The notes under the pieces: generated by a model
The model's input: the letters and a program-made list of their open reading frames with translations, nothing else
What the model was told of the DNA's origin: nothing
Databases searched by the model: none
Position numbers and translations under genes: made by a program
In this document: piece by piece, positions 8,985 to 19,350 of the stretch
Numbering within the stretch: the first letter of the stretch is position 1
How the letters are laid out: every line of letters starts with the position of its first letter
DNA from: an uncultured bacterium
Lineage (GTDB): Bacteria; Elusimicrobiota; Elusimicrobia; Elusimicrobiales; Elusimicrobiaceae
DNA: 64,000 bases
Assembly: GCA_949296525.1 (NCBI GenBank)
Contig: CASFOP010000001.1
Span: forward strand, 1-64,000
Direction of reading: 5' to 3'

Positions 8985-9010
8985 ATAAGTACGAAAGAAT
9001 TTGAGTCGTT

Positions 9011-9086
9011 GGAGTCGTGGTGTAGCCTGGTCTAACACGCTGCCCTGTCAAGGCAGAGACCGCGGGTTCGAATCCCGTCGACTCCG
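9011..9086 (+). tRNA. tRNA-Asp (anticodon GTC)
   Basis: The 76-nt cloverleaf is readable by eye: acceptor GGAGTCG/CGACTCC, D-arm, anticodon stem CTGCC/GGCAG with loop CTGTCAA (anticodon GTC), and T-arm GCGGG-TTCGAAT-CCCGT. The discriminator base is G. CCA is not encoded. The AT-rich segment begins just behind this gene. Confidence 0.96.
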
Positions 9087-9112
9087 TATTTTAGTTTTGA
9101 ATAATTAGTATA

Positions 9113-9149
9113 AATCCCCGTTAGGTTACGCGCCCGACGGGGATTTTTT
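9113..9149 (+). terminator. Rho-independent terminator of tRNA-Asp
   Basis: The 9-bp stem AATCCCCGT/ACGGGGATT has a 15-base loop and is followed by a run of T residues. Confidence 0.8.
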
Positions 9150-9160
9150 CAACACAATGC

Positions 9161-9189
9161 CTGACAGTCCTAATATGATGTGCTATAAT
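9161..9189 (+). promoter_or_regulatory. Promoter of the TPR gene
   Basis: CTGACA (9161-9166) and an extended -10 TGC-TATAAT (hexamer 9184-9189) are 17 bases apart. They are followed by a leader of about 30 bases with a good AGGAAGG ribosome site. Confidence 0.7.
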
Positions 9190-9225
9190 GATGAAAAAGT
9201 ACGTTACTTATAGGAAGGTTAGAAC

Positions 9226-10122
9226 ATGACAGTAGAAGAATATATAAAAAAAATTGAAGATTTGAAAACCGCAAAAAATGTAGGACAAGCTATATCTGTA
9301 TGTGAGGAAGCCTTGGGCAAATTCCCAGGAGAAGCCAAGCTGTATTACATAAAAGCGAACCTCTTATTGAATCAAGATAGTCCTTTTGACGGTGAATTAT
9401 TTTCTAACCTACTCAAAAAAGCCACCGATTTGGCTCCCAATTGGGCAGAACCCCATAAATTATGGGCTTATGTTACCGAACAATTAGGCCATCCGGATAT
9501 GGCTCTTAAAGGATATGAACGGGCGTTAGCTATTGACCCGCAAGACGCGGATACTTGGTGGAAATCAGCAGAAGTAAAACAACTACTATCTGATTTTACC
9601 GGTTCCATAGAAGACGCTACTCATGCTATTGAAATATCCAAGGAAAATGCTCGGGAGGTTTATTATGCCCAACGCGGAGCTTCAAAACGTGCATTAAAAG
9701 ATTACGAAGGGGCTTTGGCAGATTATCAAAAAGCCGTAGAACTTAACCCCAATTATGGCGGTGGATTTTTGGATATGGCACAAATCAAATTTGCACAACA
9801 AGATTGGCAAGGAGCTATTGATATGGTTTCTCAAACTATAAAATTGTTCCCCCAACATGCCCCAGCCTATGGAATGAGGGGAGAAGCGAAAATACAACTA
9901 AACGATTTAAAAGGAGCATTACAAGATTTTCAGCAAGCGCTATTTTTGGATCCAAAAGACGAACGGCCTCTTCCTAGAATTGCTGAACTACAAAACCAGT
10001 TGTTAGCCAAAATACCGAAAGGGACCCAAGCATTACATGTTACCTTGAAAACAGGTCACAAAGCTATGCATATACCTTTGGACGGAGAAATAATTACGTT
10101 CATAGAGTTGCCGCAAGCATAG
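9226..10122 (+). CDS. Cytoplasmic TPR-repeat protein, role unknown
   Basis: 298 aa without signal peptide or membrane span. About six tetratricopeptide units fill residues 15-255 (for example LGHPDMALKGYERALAIDP and KDYEGALADYQKAVELNP). A C-terminal tail of about 40 residues without TPR pattern looks like a small beta-type domain. TPR arrays are protein-interaction scaffolds, and nothing in the neighbourhood shows the partner. Codon use is clearly more AT-rich than in murB upstream. A strong AGGAAGG site precedes the ATG and a terminator follows. Confidence 0.8.
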   Translation: MTVEEYIKKIEDLKTAKNVGQAISVCEEALGKFPGEAKLYYIKANLLLNQDSPFDGELFSNLLKKATDLAPNWAEPHKLWAYVTEQLGHPDMALKGYERALAIDPQDADTWWKSAEVKQLLSDFTGSIEDATHAIEISKENAREVYYAQRGASKRALKDYEGALADYQKAVELNPNYGGGFLDMAQIKFAQQDWQGAIDMVSQTIKLFPQHAPAYGMRGEAKIQLNDLKGALQDFQQALFLDPKDERPLPRIAELQNQLLAKIPKGTQALHVTLKTGHKAMHIPLDGEIITFIELPQA

Positions 10123-10156
10123 TGCTAGCAAAACTAAAAGGACCGTATTCATTTAG

Positions 10157-10177
10157 AACCCCGCCTTGGCGGGGTTT
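10157..10177 (+). terminator. Rho-independent terminator
   Basis: AACCCCGCC, loop TT, GGCGGGGTT, then T. It ends the TPR transcript. Confidence 0.8.
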
Positions 10178-10223
10178 CATATTTATAGCATGTTGTATAT
10201 ATAAGTTGGTGTACCGTCTCTTT

Positions 10224-10728
10224 ATGAAAACGATTATCCGCCAAATCCTTGCCTGCATTCAAAACGTCTGTGCCCCGCGCCCGCCGTTTTTGGCGTTTTG
10301 CCAAAGCGGGGACAGTTATATTACCCTGCCGGACGGGGAAAGGCCCTGTTTATACGTTATTTTACGCGGGAAAAAGCCCACCAGCTGGGCATTGACGTCA
10401 GCTTCGCCGTATGCGATGAAAGCGGCCTGCTGCGTTATTTCCAGCGCTTCGGGCAGGCTTTGGTGTTAAGTGTAACATTGGTGCCTGGCAAAGCCTATAC
10501 ATCCGCCGTCACGCAAAGCAAAACCAAAGACGTGGCCCAATGGGCCAAAGAGGGCGGTTCTTTGATGGCCATTGAGTCCAACAACCCCGCATTACGTTGG
10601 TGGCCGGCGGATATCCGCTGTTTGTCAACGGGCAAATTGCCGGCGGCATCAGCGTAGGCGGCGGTACGGAAGCACAGGACTGTGAAATTGCGGAATATGT
10701 TTTATCCGTCTTTGAAAAAGCGGATTGA
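10224..10728 (+). pseudogene. Frameshifted GlcG/HbpS-family (DUF336) gene
   Basis: Three reading frames each carry one part of a GlcG/HbpS-like heme-binding-type protein. Frame one starts at ATG 10224. The next frame, from about 10350, reads EKAHQLGIDVSFAVCDESG and later VPGKAYTSAVTQSKTKDVAQ. After about 10590 a third frame gives VAGGYPLFVNGQIAGGISV, then GGGTEAQDCEIAE, and stops at 10728. This order matches the family (D..G.L, GKAYTA, GG.P...G...G..GVSGG). At least two frameshifts split the gene, so no full-length product is expected. The order of the fragments is seen directly. The family name rests on motif recall. Confidence 0.72.
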
Positions 10729-10828
10729 TTTCCTCTTCAATTCCGCAACACAACCGGATCAAGCTGGAGCCGATTTCAAGGATGGCTTTGGAATATTTAT
10801 CCATATTTTGATCAGTCTATTTTAGTTC

Positions 10829-10867
10829 AAAAAAAGCCAAGCGGAGAAATCTTTTCACGCTTGGCTT
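10829..10867 (-). terminator. Rho-independent terminator of the 40-aa gene
   Basis: The perfect 10-bp stem AAGCCAAGCG/CGCTTGGCTT (14-base loop) is followed on the minus strand by seven T residues. It overlaps the stop codon of the small gene at 10866. Confidence 0.85.
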
Positions 10868-10988
10868 ATTCACACCATAATAGATAGTTGATAACCAGGT
10901 TTAGCCCGATGGCACTATTGGCCGACTTTCCATTTCTGGCCCATTTCAGGCGTAATTCCTGAGCAATTAATTGTATGTCATTCTGCAT
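10866..10988 (-). CDS. Small protein of 40 aa, unknown
   Basis: An open frame from ATG 10988 to TAA 10866 encodes 40 residues starting MQNDIQLIAQEL and ending INYLLWCE. Support for a real gene: a GAGGA ribosome site just before the ATG, a possible -10 (GATAAT) about 17 bases upstream of the ATG, and a perfect terminator starting at the stop codon. The first half is predicted helical and basic. The second half is mildly hydrophobic. There is no known family that I can name. It could be a small regulator or the remnant of a longer gene. It sits between the pseudogene and the lipid cluster. Confidence 0.5.
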   Translation of the reverse strand: MQNDIQLIAQELRLKWARNGKSANSAIGLNLVINYLLWCE

Positions 10989-11083
10989 ATTTCCTCTTAT
11001 GCACATTATCGCTTATCACCACCCATAAGTTAAGTTAAATTTTAGAAACAAAAACCCTCCTCCGTAACACTTACAAATGTCCC

Positions 11084-11818
11084 TCACAAAAAATATACTA
11101 TCACTGGTAGCACATATAACAAGCTATCTATCCGATCTAATAGGCCTCCATGACCGGGAAGAAAAGCGCCAAAATCTTTAATGGTACATTGCCGCTTAAA
11201 GAAAGACACTGTAATGTCTCCCAAAAACCCTAAACAGCCAATGATGAGCCCCACAATTAAAGCACATATTCTATCTATTTCTACAAAATAAGGAGCTGTC
11301 CAACAGGCAAGTAACCCGCTCGTAATAACGCCGCCCCAAAAACCCACCCATGTTTTTGTAGGACTAATACGCGGAACGATTAATTTTTTACCTAAACTTT
11401 TACCCCATAAATATTGAAAAATATCATTGAGCTGGGTTACGACCACCACCAAGAAAAAAACCGACAAATTGGATTCGTAAAGGTAAAATGCTGAAATTAA
11501 ACTTAATAGGACCAGGCCAGAAAGCCCTCCGGCCAACGTAACTATTTTGACAGATTTTGTGGGGAAGGAAAAAAATGTTTTCCAGATTTCCCGCAAAGCC
11601 AACAGGCCAAGTAAAAATAATAAAGCAGCAGCATAATAAGCAGGCAAAAAGAAAACAGAACAGAACACTGTTAGAATATAAAACCATGTCTTAATGCGAA
11701 GTTGCACCTGTTTCAATTCGGGGGCAGGAAAGGCCTTTGCGGTCGCCCATGCCAGAAGGGCTGCCAAAACTAAAATGCCCCATAAAAATAAAAATCCACA
11801 GGCGATAGGAAGGTTCAT
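11084..11818 (-). CDS. ynbB: CdsA-type phosphatidate cytidylyltransferase (YnbB-like)
   Basis: Integral-membrane enzyme predicted to make CDP-diacylglycerol from phosphatidate and CTP. The 244-aa protein has about seven membrane helices and the full CdsA signature near the C-terminus: FFKRQCTIKDFGAFLPGHGG followed by LLDRIDS, plus ISPTKTWVGFWGG upstream. It is the last gene of the minus-strand cluster and overlaps the MFS gene by ATGA. In E. coli, ynbB encodes a CdsA-like protein beside ynbA, ynbC and ynbD, whose homologues all lie just upstream here. It is probably a dedicated second copy, with the housekeeping cdsA elsewhere. Confidence 0.9.
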   Translation of the reverse strand: MNLPIACGFLFLWGILVLAALLAWATAKAFPAPELKQVQLRIKTWFYILTVFCSVFFLPAYYAAALLFLLGLLALREIWKTFFSFPTKSVKIVTLAGGLSGLVLLSLISAFYLYESNLSVFFLVVVVTQLNDIFQYLWGKSLGKKLIVPRISPTKTWVGFWGGVITSGLLACWTAPYFVEIDRICALIVGLIIGCLGFLGDITVSFFKRQCTIKDFGAFLPGHGGLLDRIDSLLYVLPVIVYFL

Positions 11819-13098
11819 AACGGACTGTCCTGTGATCTTTGTTTATAGTACAAAACAAACACAACAATTAGATTAAGTATTACAAATATGCTAAGTATAC
11901 GCGGAATAGGTTGTCTCAAAAATAATAAACCCGAACAAAGCAGGCTTCCGGCTACCATAAACAAGGAATTCACGATATTGTTCGCCGCAATAATCCGCGC
12001 CCGTTGCTTAATCGGAGCAATAGTTTGTAACAAAGTGGTCAAGGGAACAATATATACTCCCCCACAAATAGAAAATGAAAACAGATCAAAAACGATTCGT
12101 TTACCTGCGCTGCTGTGCAAAAACACAGGCAAGGCATTAAAAACTAGTCCCGCATTACACCAAGTTATATAAGTTAAATCTGCCAAAAACAGAGTCGCCA
12201 GCAGCAAGCTAATTACACTATATTTGGAAGAGACTTTCCCTTTAAGCAAAATTTGGCTTAATAGAGAACCTACACCAATCCCACATGAAAACAAAACCAA
12301 AAAAAGTGTAAACATGGCATCATTCCCCCCCAAATAAGTTACTAATGCAGGCAATTGGGAGAGTAAAATGGTACCTACACCCCAAAACCAAGAAATCAAT
12401 AAAATACATTCCAAAATGCGATGATCATCTTTGGCAAAACGCATATTTCTGTAGGTACTACGGAAACAATTTTTATCAATTTGTATTGTTGGATTAGCCG
12501 GCTGTAATTTAGGGACACAAAGGCTGCATAACGCGGTAGCAACCCCCACAAGCAGTAATATGCCGTATAGCCAAATATAAGAGAAGGAAAAAATCATTCC
12601 TCCCACAATCGTTCCTCCTAAAATAGCTATATATACTGCGGCTTGCATCAGCCCATTTGCAAACAATAATTTATTAGAAGGTAAAATTTCGGACAAAATA
12701 CTGTATTTAACGGGACTTAACATGGCCCCGCCTGCTCCCATTCCCAGCAAGGCTATGAATAAAAATGGAAGAATACGCCATTTGAAACCCACACAAGCCA
12801 GCACCACAAAAAAGAACTGCCACAAACAGATCCCTTTGATTACCCGATTCTTAGCATATCTATCAGCCAACTCTCCAGCCAAAGTAGACACCAGAAAAGT
12901 TGGCAACATCAAAAGTCCCACAGCCAATGCCGCAAGGGTAGAACGCGTATTTGCCGCCAACGTCGTCATCTCAAACATCACAAACGAAGCTAAAGCGGTT
13001 CTAAGAAAATTATTATTAAATGTATCAAAAAACTGAGTCGCATTTACCCAGAAAAAAGCATGAGGAGCGGCAACAACAGAGGAAACGTTTTTGGACAT
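11815..13098 (-). CDS. MFS transporter, LplT-like (lysophospholipid flippase type)
   Basis: Twelve-helix major facilitator of about 427 aa. The N-terminal WVNATQFFDTFNNNFLRTAL resembles the LplT group, which moves lysophospholipids across the inner membrane for re-acylation. The assignment rests on this and on the lipid-gene context. I place the start at the second ATG (MSKNV, 13098). The ATG at 13110 falls inside the stem of the preceding terminator. The real start follows directly after the T-run, so expression probably depends on read-through. It overlaps ynbB by four bases. No acyltransferase partner (Aas type) is present in the cluster. Confidence 0.78.
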   Translation of the reverse strand: MSKNVSSVVAAPHAFFWVNATQFFDTFNNNFLRTALASFVMFEMTTLAANTRSTLAALAVGLLMLPTFLVSTLAGELADRYAKNRVIKGICLWQFFFVVLACVGFKWRILPFLFIALLGMGAGGAMLSPVKYSILSEILPSNKLLFANGLMQAAVYIAILGGTIVGGMIFSFSYIWLYGILLLVGVATALCSLCVPKLQPANPTIQIDKNCFRSTYRNMRFAKDDHRILECILLISWFWGVGTILLSQLPALVTYLGGNDAMFTLFLVLFSCGIGVGSLLSQILLKGKVSSKYSVISLLLATLFLADLTYITWCNAGLVFNALPVFLHSSAGKRIVFDLFSFSICGGVYIVPLTTLLQTIAPIKQRARIIAANNIVNSLFMVAGSLLCSGLLFLRQPIPRILSIFVILNLIVVFVLYYKQRSQDSPL

Positions 13099-13100
13099 AT

Positions 13101-13137
13101 AAAAAAACATCCTTGCAAGATTTTCTTTGCAAGGATG
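13101..13137 (-). terminator. Internal terminator/attenuator of the lipid cluster
   Basis: The 11-bp stem CATCCTTGCAA/TTGCAAGGATG (13108-13118 with 13127-13137) is followed on the minus strand by seven T residues. It lies between the small membrane-protein gene and the MFS gene, and its T-run ends three bases before the MFS start codon. Confidence 0.8.
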
Positions 13138-13149
13138 GCTATTGACAAA

Positions 13150-13617
13150 TTATCTCTTAATGCTTGCGGCCATCAAGGCGAAGCCCAACAGAGTCAACGC
13201 CCACTGAGTAAAGCACAGGGAAATCGCTTTAAAATAAATAGTACGTGTTCCTTCCCAGCGGCTTTCCAATGAACGATTCTTGCGGTGTGCTTTCCAAAAG
13301 TATTGAACCGTATTATCAAAAACTTGGTCATTTCGGGGATTGGCATATAGCACTTCAAACAATTTCCCTTCCACAAACAAATGAACGCTTAAAAACATCG
13401 TCCATAAGCCAATTACAGAGGCCAGGCCCAAAATAGCTGCTCCAATAATATCCATAGTCACTTCCGGGTTGAAAAAGAAATTAAAACCCATAATTGCAGT
13501 AGCATAAGCCACTAAGGATACAATCAGCAACTGAGGCGTAACACTCAAAAAGGCAAGCACTACTTTACCAGCCACAGCACTTTCCATTTCCTGTTTATTT
13601 AGTGTTTTTTCTGGCAT
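13150..13617 (-). CDS. Small membrane protein in lipid cluster, unknown
   Basis: 155 aa with three hydrophobic segments (about 20-45, 55-80 and 130-152) and a basic hydrophilic loop rich in Lys/Arg/Asn between the last two. No family recognised. A GAGGAG site precedes the ATG. It lies 23 bases behind the PAP2/phosphatase gene and is followed by the internal terminator. The context suggests a role in the lipid pathway, perhaps as an accessory subunit. There is no direct evidence for a function. Confidence 0.7.
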   Translation of the reverse strand: MPEKTLNKQEMESAVAGKVVLAFLSVTPQLLIVSLVAYATAIMGFNFFFNPEVTMDIIGAAILGLASVIGLWTMFLSVHLFVEGKLFEVLYANPRNDQVFDNTVQYFWKAHRKNRSLESRWEGTRTIYFKAISLCFTQWALTLLGFALMAASIKR

Positions 13618-13640
13618 ATTATCTCCTCATTCAAAATTTT

Positions 13641-14948
13641 TTAGATTATATAATTTTGCTGCCACTGATGCAAATAATATAACTGCCGCACGCTTAATAC
13701 TGTCCGTGGACGTTTTTGGACGACAAATTGGACAGCTTGTTGGAGAGTGGTACAGTGTTTTGTGAATATTAAATACGCAATTACTACCGTAGCGCTGCGG
13801 GACAACCCTAACGCACAGCACACCAACACGGAACCTTTTTGTGACAAAACAATCAATTTTTCTACGGCTTGTTGGATTTGTTCGGGCGTTTGAGCCAACA
13901 AATCCAGGCGTGGGCAACAAATTCTCTCTGCGCATTGAATGGAAGAAGAGTCAAATTCCGCCGTCATATCCAATAATCCGTTCTGTTTAATTTGTTTATG
14001 GGAAGGCAAACTGCCCAAATAAATTCTGTCGGTAATTTTCACAGAACCGGGTAAACTATGCGTAAAATAGCATTTAGACAAAAATGCCCCTAAACGATAC
14101 GGCGCCAGCAATATATGTGCTGATAATGACAATTTGCCCCGTGTATCTTTTTGAAAAACAGCCGTCCCCCACAATGCGTAACCAAAGCCCACTATTAGCA
14201 GAGATAATGAAGGCCAAAAGAACCACAAACAAGCCCCTTTTTTACTCCAAGCCAGCACAGCGAATAGTCCGCTTCCCAACAAATAAAAAAAACTTAATTT
14301 TGCACGTTGATATGTCCAAACAGGAAGGGTCCTTTCAAAAGGTTGCAAGGGCAACAAATATGAAATCAGCACTCCTGTAAAAAATCCGAGCGGCACATCT
14401 ATAAAGTGATGCTGATAGCAAGTTAATACAGATATTCCGATAAGTACAAACCAAGCAGTTAACACCGCCCTTATTACACCGGAAGTATGTGCCCGAAAGC
14501 GCAACCACACCAGCCATGCTAAAGCAATATGCAAAGAGGGAGCCTGATTAAATGGCGTTGCCACCAAACCAGATCCGCCTATTAGCCAACGAAACAGTGG
14601 GTTAGATATACCTGGAATTTCCGATCTGCAGGCTAGTGGAAACAAGATAAAAAAAACACAACATATTAAAGATGCAAAAAACAAACGCTTGGCATGAACC
14701 GTCAGCTCCTTTTTAGAAGTGCAAATAAAAAAAGAAAGGCCGTAGAACAAATCCATGCTCCAATACGGAATGATTGTCCACGGCAAAAACGGAATATATT
14801 TTTCCCAAGGGTAGGATATACTGGGGACAAAAGGCAAAGAAGACGCGTATTGATTGGCAATACCATACGACCAAAAGAAAAACCCGGCCAAGAGTAATAG
14901 ATAAAAACTAGCTGATTTCCACAAAGGGAATTTTTGGGTCAATATCAT
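13641..14948 (-). CDS. ynbD: PAP2-type membrane phosphatase fused to dual-specificity phosphatase (YnbD-like)
   Basis: 435 aa. The N-terminal half is an integral-membrane PAP2_3-type domain with PSLH (137-140) and HHFID (180-184), the motifs of phosphatidate-phosphatase and inositol-phosphorylceramide-synthase relatives. Two further helices follow. Residues about 300-430 are a dual-specificity phosphatase domain with CX5R loop VCCALGLSRSA (Cys378, Arg384). The usual His before the catalytic Cys is Cys here. E. coli YnbD has the same fusion. The mitochondrial DSP PTPMT1 dephosphorylates phosphatidylglycerophosphate, so a lipid-phosphate substrate made by the neighbouring transferase is plausible. 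The start overlaps the ynbC-like stop (ATGA). Confidence 0.88.
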   Translation of the reverse strand: MILTQKFPLWKSASFYLLLLAGFFFWSYGIANQYASSLPFVPSISYPWEKYIPFLPWTIIPYWSMDLFYGLSFFICTSKKELTVHAKRLFFASLICCVFFILFPLACRSEIPGISNPLFRWLIGGSGLVATPFNQAPSLHIALAWLVWLRFRAHTSGVIRAVLTAWFVLIGISVLTCYQHHFIDVPLGFFTGVLISYLLPLQPFERTLPVWTYQRAKLSFFYLLGSGLFAVLAWSKKGACLWFFWPSLSLLIVGFGYALWGTAVFQKDTRGKLSLSAHILLAPYRLGAFLSKCYFTHSLPGSVKITDRIYLGSLPSHKQIKQNGLLDMTAEFDSSSIQCAERICCPRLDLLAQTPEQIQQAVEKLIVLSQKGSVLVCCALGLSRSATVVIAYLIFTKHCTTLQQAVQFVVQKRPRTVLSVRQLYYLHQWQQNYII

Positions 14949-16708
14949 TTTTTACGGGCAATTGATACGGAAAACATTCCGTTTTCATCAATTATCTCGC
15001 CTTCCTTAACGAACCCGGCTTTTTCTACCAAGAAATCCATCTCGCCCTGCGTACGCGCCCGCATTACCCACATTTTAGAAGGAGACTGCAAATCCCGCAA
15101 TGTACGGGCGATCAGTTCCAATTGTGGATGGTACGGTTGGGCCGTATAGACAAGCAGACCATCCTTTTCTAACGCTTTGGAAATTCCTTGCAGAGATTTT
15201 TCAATAGGTTCATTTTGCGGAAAAATTTCATAAAAACCGGAAACAACTGCCAAAGTAGGTGCAGGATGCATATTAGCTGTTTTTTCTACATCAAAGGCAT
15301 CTGCCTGTTCAAATTTGACCTTGTTCTGCAAATTGCGGCTGCGTATTAATTGCGTACCTTCTTTTACATTTTCCAGGCAATAATCACGCAACACCACAGA
15401 ATCAACCCCTTCGGTATTAGCAATGGCATCCAGCATATAACGCCCCTTCCCTGCCGCCACATCCAGGATGCGGACAGGCCTGTTTTCTTGTTTAAGCTGG
15501 GAAACAGCATGTTCTATCATTTTCTCTAAATTTATTTTACGTTGCCGAATACCTACCCAACCGGGGCTTTGCAAATAACATTTATCAAAGAATTTGCCAA
15601 TCAAGAGTTTGCCGGATGGCTTGTTTTGGTAAATATAATCCAATGTTCTACCGGAGTTATGTCCGGTTTGTTTGCCCAATTTCAATCCATCGGACAGTTG
15701 GCCAATTGTATTAAACGAATATTTACACAAATTGAACCAGGCTCCCTTTACGGAATACCAAGGCAAACTCCGCTTCAACGAGCGGTATTCGTCGGCCGTT
15801 GCGCCCCATACATCTTCGTGTGTATAATCATGCCAATGAGGTTCCCGGGCATAGAGTTGACTGATAAACCGACGCATTTTTTTAAAAACCAACTCGCGGT
15901 TTTGTTCGCCAAATGTATCGTGATAAAAACCTTTCATGACATGCTTTTCTTTTATATCAGAACCCAAATTTTGGTAGAACTGGTGTTGCGGCTTATGGTG
16001 TACAACCACATCACTTCCCGATATAAAAAGTTGTACCGGAATGCAAATGGCGCGGGCATCAGCCACAATGCGTTTTCCTAATGCGGCCAATTCTAAAAGC
16101 ATATGGCTGGCGATGGCTTTGGTAATTAACGGGTCTTCATTATACGATTTTCGCCGCGCCGGATCATGCGTTAAAAACTTAGCATTTACATAGGAGGAAA
16201 TATAAAAATGCCTTCCTAATACTTTTTGCCACAGTCGCATCCCTTCACAAGCAAACGGAACATATAATTTTATGCTTAACGCCGGCGAAGCCAAAATCAA
16301 ACCGCGGATTTTAGGCGCATAATCATGCACCCAGGCTGCCGCATATACCGCGCTAATGCTTTGGGCAATAATCAGAATATTTTGCTTATCTATGTGATAT
16401 TTAGCAGATATATAGGAAACAAAATCGTCAACATCCTGTACGCTGCGGGTTACGGAGGGGCTGTATCCACGAGGCCCTTCGGTACGTCCATGCCCGCGGG
16501 CATCAAAGGAAAACATAGGGACATCCGGCATATTCAGCTCATCCACAATATGCTGTAAACGAGCGCTGTGTTCGTGTCCTCGGTGTAATAGCACAAAGCA
16601 TTTGGAGGCATTATCTGCCGACTGATTGGCAGGCCAAAACCGATAGAAAATTTGTTTACCATCAGAAGCTATAAAAAAATTTTCTTGAGATGTGCGCGAT
16701 TCGTTCAT
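14945..16708 (-). CDS. ynbC: Alpha/beta hydrolase fused to SAM-dependent methyltransferase (YnbC-like)
   Basis: 587 aa in two parts. Residues about 1-300 form a monoacylglycerol-lipase-like hydrolase: FDARGHGRTEG, nucleophile elbow IAQSISA (a relaxed G-x-S-x-G), an Asp in SGSDVVVH and a His in GFYHDTFGE. Residues about 390-587 form a class I methyltransferase with motif I ILDVAAGKGRYML. A linker of about 90 residues rich in aromatics joins them. The arrangement matches E. coli YnbC. A lipase or lysophospholipase plus methylation of a lipid headgroup would fit the neighbours, but this is inference. Start and stop overlap the adjoining genes by ATGA, so the three are tightly coupled. Confidence 0.87.
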   Translation of the reverse strand: MNESRTSQENFFIASDGKQIFYRFWPANQSADNASKCFVLLHRGHEHSARLQHIVDELNMPDVPMFSFDARGHGRTEGPRGYSPSVTRSVQDVDDFVSYISAKYHIDKQNILIIAQSISAVYAAAWVHDYAPKIRGLILASPALSIKLYVPFACEGMRLWQKVLGRHFYISSYVNAKFLTHDPARRKSYNEDPLITKAIASHMLLELAALGKRIVADARAICIPVQLFISGSDVVVHHKPQHQFYQNLGSDIKEKHVMKGFYHDTFGEQNRELVFKKMRRFISQLYAREPHWHDYTHEDVWGATADEYRSLKRSLPWYSVKGAWFNLCKYSFNTIGQLSDGLKLGKQTGHNSGRTLDYIYQNKPSGKLLIGKFFDKCYLQSPGWVGIRQRKINLEKMIEHAVSQLKQENRPVRILDVAAGKGRYMLDAIANTEGVDSVVLRDYCLENVKEGTQLIRSRNLQNKVKFEQADAFDVEKTANMHPAPTLAVVSGFYEIFPQNEPIEKSLQGISKALEKDGLLVYTAQPYHPQLELIARTLRDLQSPSKMWVMRARTQGEMDFLVEKAGFVKEGEIIDENGMFSVSIARKK

Positions 16709-17313
16709 TTGCTTTCCTCCAATGCGCCAGAAAACCTATTCCAAATCGTATATAACATCAAAGCATTAACAACCCATACAGCCATGCCGGTAACAAATGC
16801 CGTAGGATAATTAAATGCAGCCAGCAGTCCCAAAAGCCCCATCCAAAACGCGCGGTCACTTTTTCCCATAGGCCCGTCATAACGCCGAGATGCCTGAATT
16901 TGCAGTCCCATAATTCCGGCGGTTTCCGTTAGCGTAAGCAAAACAGAAAACACCAGTATATTCCAAATGCAAATATGACGAACGTATAAAAAAGGGATGT
17001 ACAAAACCAAATCAGACAAAATGTCCCCGATTTCATTGAGAATAGCTCCTAACCGGGTGGCCTGGTTGTACTCACGGGCCATCATCCCATCAAAAGCGTT
17101 TAATGCCATGCGAATAAACAAAAACACAGGCAAACTAACATATAGCCAAGTATGCGTTGGCCCATACATGTAAAGCATCCAGCCCAACAGACACGACAAA
17201 ACAAAAGCTGCGACCGTGATTTGATTCGCTGTTATATGGTGAGCTGCCAAAAAACGCACAATGGGACGAAGCATTCGCTGAAAAGCAGGTTTTAATTGAT
17301 AAACAGAAATCAT
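16705..17313 (-). CDS. ynbA: CDP-alcohol phosphatidyltransferase (YnbA-like)
   Basis: 202-aa integral-membrane enzyme, first gene of the cluster. The family motif is D..DG..AR(8)G...D...D. Here it reads NAFDGMMAR...GAILNEIGD, so the first and third metal-binding Asp are Asn while the DG, AR and last D remain. This may be a feature of the YnbA branch or a loss of normal catalysis. If active it would move phosphatidyl from CDP-diacylglycerol (made by the ynbB product) to a hydroxyl acceptor. The ATG is preceded by a leaderless-type promoter and no Shine-Dalgarno. The following gene overlaps by ATGA. Confidence 0.85.
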   Translation of the reverse strand: MISVYQLKPAFQRMLRPIVRFLAAHHITANQITVAAFVLSCLLGWMLYMYGPTHTWLYVSLPVFLFIRMALNAFDGMMAREYNQATRLGAILNEIGDILSDLVLYIPFLYVRHICIWNILVFSVLLTLTETAGIMGLQIQASRRYDGPMGKSDRAFWMGLLGLLAAFNYPTAFVTGMAVWVVNALMLYTIWNRFSGALEESK

Positions 17314-17319
17314 ATATTT

Positions 17320-17325
17320 ATTTTA
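17320..17325 (-). promoter_or_regulatory. -10 of the lipid-cluster promoter (leaderless)
   Basis: On the minus strand TAAAAT ends exactly 6 bases before the ATG at 17313. There is no Shine-Dalgarno. It lies back to back with the divergent promoter at 17357. Confidence 0.6.
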
Positions 17326-17353
17326 CAACATATTTATTTTTATAAGTACGTTT

Positions 17354-17362
17354 TGCTAAAAT
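17354..17362 (+). promoter_or_regulatory. Extended -10 of a leaderless promoter (alpha/beta hydrolase)
   Basis: TGC-TAAAAT, with TGC at 17354-17356 and the hexamer at 17357-17362, ends 6 bases before the ATG at 17369. No Shine-Dalgarno is visible. Confidence 0.6.
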
Positions 17363-17368
17363 ACACAT

Positions 17369-18217
17369 ATGCTTATAGCCGTCTATGTAGTTATCATTAT
17401 CCTGCTATCACTAGTGTGTTGGGCTGTATGGGTGTCCAAAGGGCCCAAACCAGCCATTCGGGTTACACCTGCGGATTACCATTTGCAAGCACAAACCGTT
17501 TCTTTGGTTACCGCTGATCAAATAACGCTTGAAGGCTGGTTGATTAAGAATGCAAACAGTACAAAAACAATCATCCTAGTACATGGTTTTGGCATGAACA
17601 AAGGTGAAGTTTTAAAACGCACGTACTATCTGGCTACAACTTATAACTTGTTATACTTAGACTGCCGCGGAGCCGGGGATAGCGCCGGACATAGTGAAGC
17701 CGGACTGCAGGAAAGTAAGGATATAGAAGCAGCTGTACAGTATCTCCGTACAGCACACCCCCATCTATCTCAACAAATCGCACTATACGGTATCAGCATG
17801 GGTTCGGCCGCAGCTTCATACTATACTGCCACTCAAGGCGGCATCAAATGCCTCATACTCGAATCTTCTTATTTTTCATTTAAAAATGTGGCAAAACGCT
17901 GGATGTGGAGACACGCCAAAGTACCTTATTTTCCACTGGTGGCTTCCCTGATTTTCTGGAAAGAATACCGGATGGGGCAAAAAGTGGAAACTTTTGCTTT
18001 ACAAAATACGGCTTCCCAAATTACTTGCCCAGTACTCATGATACAGGGAGAAAAGGATAAATTGGCTCCTGTTGCCAAAGCTCAAAAAACATATAACTTA
18101 TTAACAGCCCCTAAAGAATTATGGGTGGTGCCCCAAGCCGGACATTTATCCTGTTACAAGGTGGGAGGGGCCGCCTATGTGGATAAAATAACTCGTTTTT
18201 TTCAAGAGAATTTATAG
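17369..18217 (+). CDS. Membrane-anchored alpha/beta hydrolase
   Basis: 282 aa. One N-terminal membrane helix (residues 1-22) is followed by a serine-hydrolase fold: oxyanion segment VHGFGMNKGE, DCRGAGDSAG, nucleophile elbow YGISMGSAA, Asp in GEKDKLAP and His in QAGHLS. All triad members are visible. It resembles the YhfR/FrsA-like S9/S33 hydrolases without a clear subgroup. It is transcribed away from the lipid cluster from a back-to-back promoter region of about 55 bases, shares the cluster's AT-rich composition, and may act on the same lipids or on acyl esters in the periplasm. Confidence 0.85.
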   Translation: MLIAVYVVIIILLSLVCWAVWVSKGPKPAIRVTPADYHLQAQTVSLVTADQITLEGWLIKNANSTKTIILVHGFGMNKGEVLKRTYYLATTYNLLYLDCRGAGDSAGHSEAGLQESKDIEAAVQYLRTAHPHLSQQIALYGISMGSAAASYYTATQGGIKCLILESSYFSFKNVAKRWMWRHAKVPYFPLVASLIFWKEYRMGQKVETFALQNTASQITCPVLMIQGEKDKLAPVAKAQKTYNLLTAPKELWVVPQAGHLSCYKVGGAAYVDKITRFFQENL

Positions 18218-18333
18218 ATATTGCCTTTGGCAGTTTAGAATGTACTTTTATAACCCATGCTTTTGCTAAACCTTACCTGTAATTATATAGCTGTGAAAAT
18301 TTTTCTTCGCCGTGTTACAAAGAAAAACCGTAT

Positions 18334-19350
18334 ATGGGTTTGCCTGCAGCCACACCCTTCGCACATATGCATATTTTAAAAGCCGCCGCCGAGCAATTAC
18401 CTCTTATCCTGCCCGTATATGAGCAGGCGCGGCGGTTTATGGCCCGAAACGGCAATGCCGGCCAATGGACCAACGGTTACCCCTCCGCCGAGCTGCTGCG
18501 CGGTGACATCGCACGCGGGCATTTATATATTTGTCTGGACGGGGAAGACATCGCGGCGGTGTTTTGCTTCCGCACGGGGGACGACCCCACCTATGCACAC
18601 ATAGACGGCGCCTGGCTCAATGACCGGCCCTACGGAGTTATACACCGACTGGCCGCAATGCGGCCCGGGAAAGGCACGGCCTCTTCTTGCATACAATGGT
18701 GTTTGTCGCAGTGTCCGAACCTGCGCATAGATACGCACGAGAAAAATATCCCCATGCAAAAAGTCCTGCTGAAAAACGGCTTTGTCTACTGCGGCATTAT
18801 CCGCACCGATGACGGCACGCCACGGCGTGCCTACCAGTTCAGCTTACCACAGGCCCTTATCCCTTCATCGGGCATGGCGGCGGCGCATTTTACCCTTTTT
18901 GCTCCTAAAGCCTATCCTTCCCTTTTGCCGCTCCTGCTGGAGGCCGATCCGTGCGAAAGCGTGGTAAAGAATTATTTTACACACAGTCTGGTCTGGGGCT
19001 ACCAACGGGGGCAAGAACCCTTGGCCGAAGCGTGCGTCCAGCCACTGGCGCCAGGACTAGCTGAATTAAAAAACCTGGCCGTTCGTGCAGATTTACGCGG
19101 ACAGGGAGTAGGCAGGGCTTTATGCCTCAGTGTCTTTTCCGCCTGCCAAGGCAGAGGATTTGTACAACTGATTGTGGGAACAGCAGATGTCCCCGGTCAT
19201 CCCGGCCCCTTTTATCAGAAACTGGGTTTTTCTTTTGAACGAAAAGAAAAAGATTTCTTCCTGCGCCGTTATCCTCATCCGATATACGATAATGGCCGGC
19301 TCTGCCGCGACATGCTCTTTTTCCGCCGGGAACTGCGTGACAATATCTAA
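18334..19350 (+). CDS. Tandem GNAT acetyltransferase (two domains)
   Basis: 338 aa (327 aa if started at the second ATG, 18367, which removes a weak N-terminal extension). The first GNAT domain (about 12-170) resembles the small-molecule acetyltransferases that contain an ASSCIQWCLSQ helix and DTHEKNIPMQKVLLKNGF. The second (about 185-335) has the acetyl-CoA loop LRGQGVGRAL and ends in FYQKLGF. Only the second has a complete Q/R-x-x-G-x-G/A loop. The first has RPGKGTASSC in its place. The substrate is unknown. No convincing Shine-Dalgarno precedes either start. Confidence 0.82.
   Translation: MGLPAATPFAHMHILKAAAEQLPLILPVYEQARRFMARNGNAGQWTNGYPSAELLRGDIARGHLYICLDGEDIAAVFCFRTGDDPTYAHIDGAWLNDRPYGVIHRLAAMRPGKGTASSCIQWCLSQCPNLRIDTHEKNIPMQKVLLKNGFVYCGIIRTDDGTPRRAYQFSLPQALIPSSGMAAAHFTLFAPKAYPSLLPLLLEADPCESVVKNYFTHSLVWGYQRGQEPLAEACVQPLAPGLAELKNLAVRADLRGQGVGRALCLSVFSACQGRGFVQLIVGTADVPGHPGPFYQKLGFSFERKEKDFFLRRYPHPIYDNGRLCRDMLFFRRELRDNI

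Follow-up and report, generated by a model that had tools for sequence, protein, structure and literature searches.

A YnbABCD-type phospholipid gene cluster with an LplT-like carrier on a tRNA-Asp island of an uncultured Elusimicrobiaceae bacterium

Genes of the cluster and their surroundings

The window analysed here, the first 64,000 nucleotides of contig CASFOP010000001.1 from an uncultured bacterium of the Elusimicrobiaceae, holds six co-directional genes on the minus strand between positions 11084 and 17313, all with open reading frames. The genes and the features around them are the following:

9010..9087, plus strand: tRNA-Asp, with the left junction of the island at its 3' end
9088..18365, no strand: island of 9.3 kb with a GC of 41.9%, lacking in the nearest relative examined
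9226..10122, plus strand: TPR protein in the island
11084..11818, minus strand: CdsA-type CDP-diacylglycerol synthase, YnbB type, 244 aa (CTP_transf_1/CdsA in Pfam/NCBIfam)
11815..13110, minus strand: LplT-like MFS carrier, 431 aa, in the acyltransferase slot of other clusters (MFS; best NCBIfam match PRK06814)
13150..13617, minus strand: small membrane protein, 155 aa, at the position expected of Arc1D (profile comparison, neighbourhoods)
13641..14948, minus strand: YnbD, fusion of a PAP2-type lipid phosphatase and a dual-specificity phosphatase, 435 aa (PAP2 and DSPc in Pfam)
14945..16708, minus strand: YnbC, fusion of a monoacylglycerol-lipase-like hydrolase and a SAM methyltransferase, 587 aa (Hydrolase_4 and Methyltransf_20 in Pfam)
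16705..17313, minus strand: CDP-alcohol phosphatidyltransferase (CDP-AP), YnbA/Arc1A type, 202 aa (PF01066, CDP-OH_P_transf, 45 bits; alignment, motif and control paralogues)
17023..17100, minus strand: catalytic signature of the CDP-AP, residues 72-97 (N72, D75, N93, D97)
17369..18217, plus strand: divergent alpha/beta hydrolase adjoining the cluster

An initial annotation of this DNA had described a one-direction run of genes joined by ATGA overlaps. The common direction holds for all six genes, and the overlaps for three of the five junctions (CDP-AP/YnbC, YnbC/YnbD and MFS/CdsA), the other two being gaps of 23 and 39 bp. The host genome (1.54 Mb, 94% complete) encodes two further CDP-OH transferases outside the cluster, a housekeeping CdsA in addition to the CdsA paralogue of the cluster, which brings its CTP_transf_1 genes to two, and an Aas fusion of about 1140 residues that joins MFS, acyltransferase and ligase parts. 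Since these functions are present elsewhere in the genome, the cluster is taken to be an additional lipid route, not a housekeeping one. The hydrolase at 17369-18217 was considered as a seventh member and rejected: its family occurs in 59 of 61 genomes of the genus, and cluster-free genomes hold closer copies, so that it is not specific to the cluster.

The N-terminal half of YnbC matches monoacylglycerol lipases (E 3.5e-29), and the nucleophile Ser, the Asp, the His and the SAM motif of the protein are retained in nearly all copies. The methyltransferase half has a predicted structure with a pLDDT of 91, for which the closest fold is the uncharacterised Bordetella protein 3ocj (Z 22.6, rmsd 3.0, 249 residues aligned). 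The same fold search returned many natural-product methyltransferases at similar Z; it points to no lipid methyltransferase and gives no hint of the substrate. The PAP2 domain of YnbD scores below the Pfam cut-off, yet its PSLH and HHxxD motifs are intact; this half, poorly predicted in the structural model, may be a PgpB-like phosphatase or transferase-like. The dual-specificity half of YnbD resembles Tk-PTP and PTPMT1, and its Cx5R loop is retained in 16 of 17 copies.

The small membrane protein has no Pfam match. It is the best conserved small part of the cluster among Elusimicrobia, where homologues are 70-79% identical to the window copy. A tblastn search against plasmids gave no match, and the link to Proteobacteria was made by profile comparison: hhalign against the small proteins of proteobacterial six-gene clusters gave a probability of 93.8% and an E of 1.8e-7. 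Both sets of proteins have an (S)xHLxx(D/E)xxLF-type segment and an R..G near the end, and the combined profile also detects three gammaproteobacterial loci outside its building set. The protein had been regarded as an addition to the known cluster; it is instead a standard part, with a homologue in nine proteobacterial clusters, about half of the family examined.

Distribution and mobility of the cluster family

Among the closest known relatives is ynbABCD of E. coli (b1408-b1411), which has the same four enzymes. The relation proposed earlier is borne out by YnbC, which is 51% identical to the K-12 protein over its full length, while YnbA and YnbD are 45% and 40% identical. Unlike the window, the K-12 locus has no acyltransferase or carrier and no small membrane protein, and its order is A-B-C-D, with CdsA second.

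A search for conserved neighbourhoods of YnbC and YnbD homologues had been suggested as a check. YnbC homologues were collected from plasmids, E. coli, Xenorhabdus, Gammaproteobacteria, Fusobacterium and Elusimicrobia, and every locus was scanned with the cluster proteins; the count outside Elusimicrobia covers 19 loci chosen by YnbC and leaves aside a Kosakonia YnbC that has no cluster. The families do occur together, so that the lack of co-occurrence which would have spoken against the initial annotation is not seen. CDP-AP and CdsA are each found in 17 of these 19 loci, a full YnbD in 12 (with two more partial ones), a PlsC-type acyltransferase in 10, and the small membrane protein in 9. 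All five Elusimicrobial loci hold the CDP-AP, YnbC, YnbD and the small membrane protein. Plasmids of Roseateles, Rhizobium, Shinella, Burkholderia and Citrobacter bear six-gene clusters with an acyltransferase, not an MFS carrier. By homology and gene content, the cluster in the window is almost certainly a member of this YnbABCD-type family, which is found in Elusimicrobia, Proteobacteria and Fusobacteria.

The gene set is not a chance one, because Proteobacteria and other Elusimicrobia hold the same set. An assembly of lipid genes by chance, or a decaying remnant without joint function, would agree with the patchy distribution of the cluster and with the frameshift seen in one relative; it is countered by the same genes in three phyla, the retained active-site residues and the open frames throughout the window, and its probability is next to negligible. 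As for the patchiness, the YnbC methyltransferase domain scores above the cut-off in 3 of 37 genomes of the genus in one sample and in 5 of 248 genomes of the phylum in another. The Elusimicrobial YnbC proteins are 70-80% identical to the window copy and all others at most 54%, which suggests a single entry into the bacterial family and a later spread. A YnbC scan of viral contigs found no relative.

Several plasmid and gammaproteobacterial loci show variations of their own. The E. coli colicin plasmid pFHI_NMBU_11_02 (L007, 9845-14031) holds CdsA, acyltransferase and YnbC, with the transferase and YnbD broken, and is mostly 90-97% identical to the intact cluster of a Citrobacter plasmid. On an IncF-type Citrobacter plasmid, an intact six-gene cluster adjoins a Tn3-family transposase and a recombinase (L055, 665-10430). 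The cluster-free YnbC homologue of the Kosakonia plasmid (L060, 2898-8623) follows genes for an acyl carrier protein, a ketosynthase and FabG, and its catalytic Ser segment is altered. In two gammaproteobacterial loci (L048, 11528-12133; L051, 11763-12554), a secreted protein that by eye looks like SnoaL/NTF2 adjoins the cluster and is possibly accessory.

The island that carries the cluster in the window has a GC content of 41.9%, lower than that of its flanks (52.2 and 53.1%). In the most closely related genome of those examined (G001), whose neighbouring proteins are 91-99% identical, the site is empty, and the DNA of a GNAT gene follows 35 bp after tRNA-Asp; in the window, 9.28 kb (9088-18365) separate the two. 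The empty site, the low GC and the tRNA-Asp junction uphold the transfer that the initial annotation had suggested from base composition. Because the sister clusters are close to the GC of their own hosts, the copy in the window seems to have arrived recently. No direct repeat of at least 10 bases was found at the right end of the island, and no integrase was seen among its ORFs.

Another species (G007) has, at its own copy of this tRNA-Asp, a segment 99% identical to 9082-10145, although its housekeeping genes there are about 74% identical to those of the window. About 1.1 kb downstream, G007 repeats 21 bp of the tRNA 3' end, CTCCGTATTTTAGTTTTGAAT. Across the genus, this end of tRNA-Asp is a hot spot for integration (window 9010-18365, L067 and L077). 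The clusters of G219 and G007 lie instead near tRNA-His (L010, 15857-15931; L014, 5075-5151), a second tRNA site. The cluster is in all likelihood mobile, and is carried as cargo of a tRNA island here and of plasmids elsewhere.

Active site of the transferase and the carrier in the acyltransferase slot

The canonical CDP-AP signature, DxxDGxxARx8GxxxDxxxD, has four Asp residues that bind two metals, the fourth Asp also being the catalytic base (PMC6506517). In the window the signature reads NxxDGxxARx8GxxxNExxD. All 19 cluster copies, which come from three phyla, have the form NxxDGMxA[RKN]x8GxxxNExxD, so the first and third metal-ligand positions are Asn in every one of them, including YnbA of E. 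coli, which has the same substituted signature as the window. In a control set from twelve cluster-bearing genomes, all 26 other CDP-OH transferases with a readable motif are canonical, with Asp, whereas the cluster transferases within the same set have Asn. The substitution singles out the residue pair N72/N93.

The closest solved CDP-AP by profile is the phosphatidylinositol-phosphate synthase PgsA1 of M. tuberculosis (Mtb), which shares the phosphate-binding Arg positions with the cluster transferases; these differ from it by the two Asp-to-Asn changes, which break the four-Asp signature, and by R94. The second Asp, the fourth Asp (base), R154 and R193 are invariant in the cluster transferases, and the two arginines correspond in the alignment to R155 and R195 of Mtb PgsA1, which bind the phosphate of the acceptor inositol phosphate (PMC6506517). 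R94 is reported to be conserved in enzymes that use inositol phosphate (PMC6506517), and in the alignment with Mtb PgsA1 an R94-type residue is absent from the cluster transferases. Retention of the phosphate-binding arginines and lack of R94 favour an acceptor that is phosphorylated but is not inositol phosphate, and such an acceptor would fit the phosphatase fusion encoded in the same operon.

The double Asp-to-Asn change could mean that the transferase does not perform the standard reaction. It might then be a structural subunit, or catalyse another phosphotransfer, and the product of the cluster would not be a phosphatidyl-alcohol. The contrast between Asn in all 19 cluster copies and Asp in all 26 paralogues speaks for this explanation, but no cluster copy departs from the second Asp, the catalytic base or the phosphate-binding arginines, and the explanation is judged distinctly unlikely. 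The strong conservation of these residues instead argues for transferase activity.

The carrier gene is the main departure of this cluster from others. Its best NCBIfam match is the LplT-Aas fusion PRK06814 (E 5e-98), and over 402 residues it shares 46% identity with the LplT domain in the Aas fusion that the same genome encodes, in agreement with its earlier naming as LplT-like. Against the NCBIfam LplT equivalog PRK11195 it reaches 79.2 bits, below the cut-off of 297, and the name is therefore limited to 'LplT-like', with transport as a predicted function. A sequence comparison with the PDB gave no match for the carrier, and E. coli LplT is 27% identical to it. In 41 related genomes, good matches to the carrier are either Aas fusions of about 1150 aa, of which they form the head, or a stand-alone form found only in genomes with the cluster, and three cluster carriers group together, apart from the LplT domains of the fusions.

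The carrier had been described as a gene added to the ynb set. The MFS gene is a genuine difference, but it replaces a lysophospholipid acyltransferase rather than joining the others: it occupies the acyltransferase slot in three of the four assessable Elusimicrobial loci, and none of the four complete clusters of Elusimicrobia contains an acyltransferase. The G007 cluster has a frameshifted transferase gene, and about 300 bp of non-coding DNA lie at the MFS site (L014, 11203-11807 and 7300-7700); with the carrier missing and the frameshift, this copy may be decaying or misread through sequencing error.

In the known repair system, LplT flips lysophospholipids inward and Aas re-acylates them (PMC11416262). 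The carrier of the window differs from that system in being free-standing and inside a Ynb operon, not with Aas. Its presence in place of an acyltransferase is independent gene-content evidence that the route handles lysophospholipids, and a natural cluster with this exchange points to them as the input.

A proposed role in phospholipid damage and membrane remodelling

The best described counterpart is found in P. aeruginosa, where PA2541-36 were named arc1A-F, for antagonism resistance cluster 1; this cluster is controlled by Gac/Rsm and is protective under type VI attack, and five of its six genes are related to phospholipids, four of them resembling PG synthesis (PMC8926400). Ting et al. 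could not attribute the Arc1 phenotype to any single effector of B. thailandensis (PMC8926400). Arc1A, Arc3A and Aas protect P. aeruginosa from lipase effectors, Arc1A from Tle1 and TseL (PMC12663445). The initial annotation had assigned the cluster to the ynbABCD type and left its product unassigned; the type stands, and a role is now suggested by the description of arc1A-F, whose first gene is required against type VI lipase effectors.

The likeness between arc1A-F and the window cluster is drawn from the descriptions in these papers and not from the PA2541-36 sequences. A search of 395 genomes with an arc1A primer sequence gave no match, these genomes probably being of the wrong family. PA2536 is annotated as a probable phosphatidate cytidylyltransferase and PA2540 as a putative phospholipase. 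The small protein of the window would correspond to a small membrane protein among the six of arc1 only by way of the proteobacterial six-gene clusters, with which it was compared by profile. Judging from proteobacterial loci with the same gene order, arc1E should encode an acyltransferase; the corresponding gene in the window is that of the MFS carrier. Control by Gac/Rsm would not be expected in Elusimicrobia. The window cluster probably works like arc1.

We propose that the cluster serves a phospholipase-damage and membrane-remodelling route with a PG-type product, a reading that seems quite plausible, if somewhat short of probable. The LplT-like carrier would flip lysophospholipids derived from damage inward, where Aas/PlsC enzymes of the same genome could re-acylate them or the lipase domain of YnbC could trim them. 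CdsA would supply CDP-diacylglycerol, which the YnbA/Arc1A-type transferase would couple to an alcohol phosphate, in the simplest case glycerol-3-phosphate. The phosphate would then be removed by the phosphatase fusion YnbD and the lipid tailored by the methyltransferase domain of YnbC, with the small membrane protein probably holding the complex together. The outcome would be a dedicated pool of a PG-type anionic lipid, and an envelope that stays intact under phospholipase attack. The genes present, their conserved neighbourhood, the exchange in the acyltransferase slot, the mobility and the retained active-site residues are observations, and the substrates, the sequence of reactions and protection of this host are inferred from them, as is the phosphatidyl-alcohol route put forward in the initial annotation.

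The cluster might instead mainly destroy lysophospholipids and free fatty acids: the flippase would import lysolipid, YnbC would deacylate it, its methyltransferase would cap the fatty acid, and the CDP-AP branch would recycle the head group. This is unlikely, though it draws on the match of the N-terminal half of YnbC to monoacylglycerol lipases with its retained Ser, Asp and His, on the LplT-like carrier and on the lipase-effector phenotype of arc1A. It sits poorly with the biosynthetic core of CdsA and CDP-AP, which is more constant than YnbD, the acyltransferase or the carrier, and with the fold search of YnbC, which indicates no lipid methyltransferase.

A different substrate altogether is raised by YnbB of E. 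coli, which makes CDP-DAG in vitro and can support the glycolipid MPIase (PMC7018664), involved in membrane protein integration. The CdsA paralogue could be an MPIase backup, with the other genes also serving MPIase. Sato et al. 2019, as summarised in PMC7018664, found that YnbB restores MPIase, and not phospholipids, in CdsA-depleted cells. A ynbB knockout, however, has no MPIase defect (PMC7018664), the lipase sensitivity of arc1A mutants (PMC12663445) does not fit, and the joint travel of the CDP-AP, the phosphatases, the lipase-methyltransferase and the LplT-like carrier would be left unexplained; we consider a supply of MPIase very unlikely.

In a more tentative and rather unlikely proposal, Arc1A/YnbA would be a re-tuned lineage of CDP-alcohol phosphotransferases, with Asn at metal ligands 1 and 3, that turns precursors derived from lysolipids into a stress phospholipid not yet described. 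The flippase in place of the acyltransferase would then reveal that the whole Ynb/Arc1 route feeds on lysophospholipids. The Ynb/Arc1 lipid matters beyond this host, as Arc1A is required against lipase effectors in P. aeruginosa and almost all E. coli have the ynb locus, with a match there in 5368 of 5426 genomes, in 4219 of them over at least 80%.
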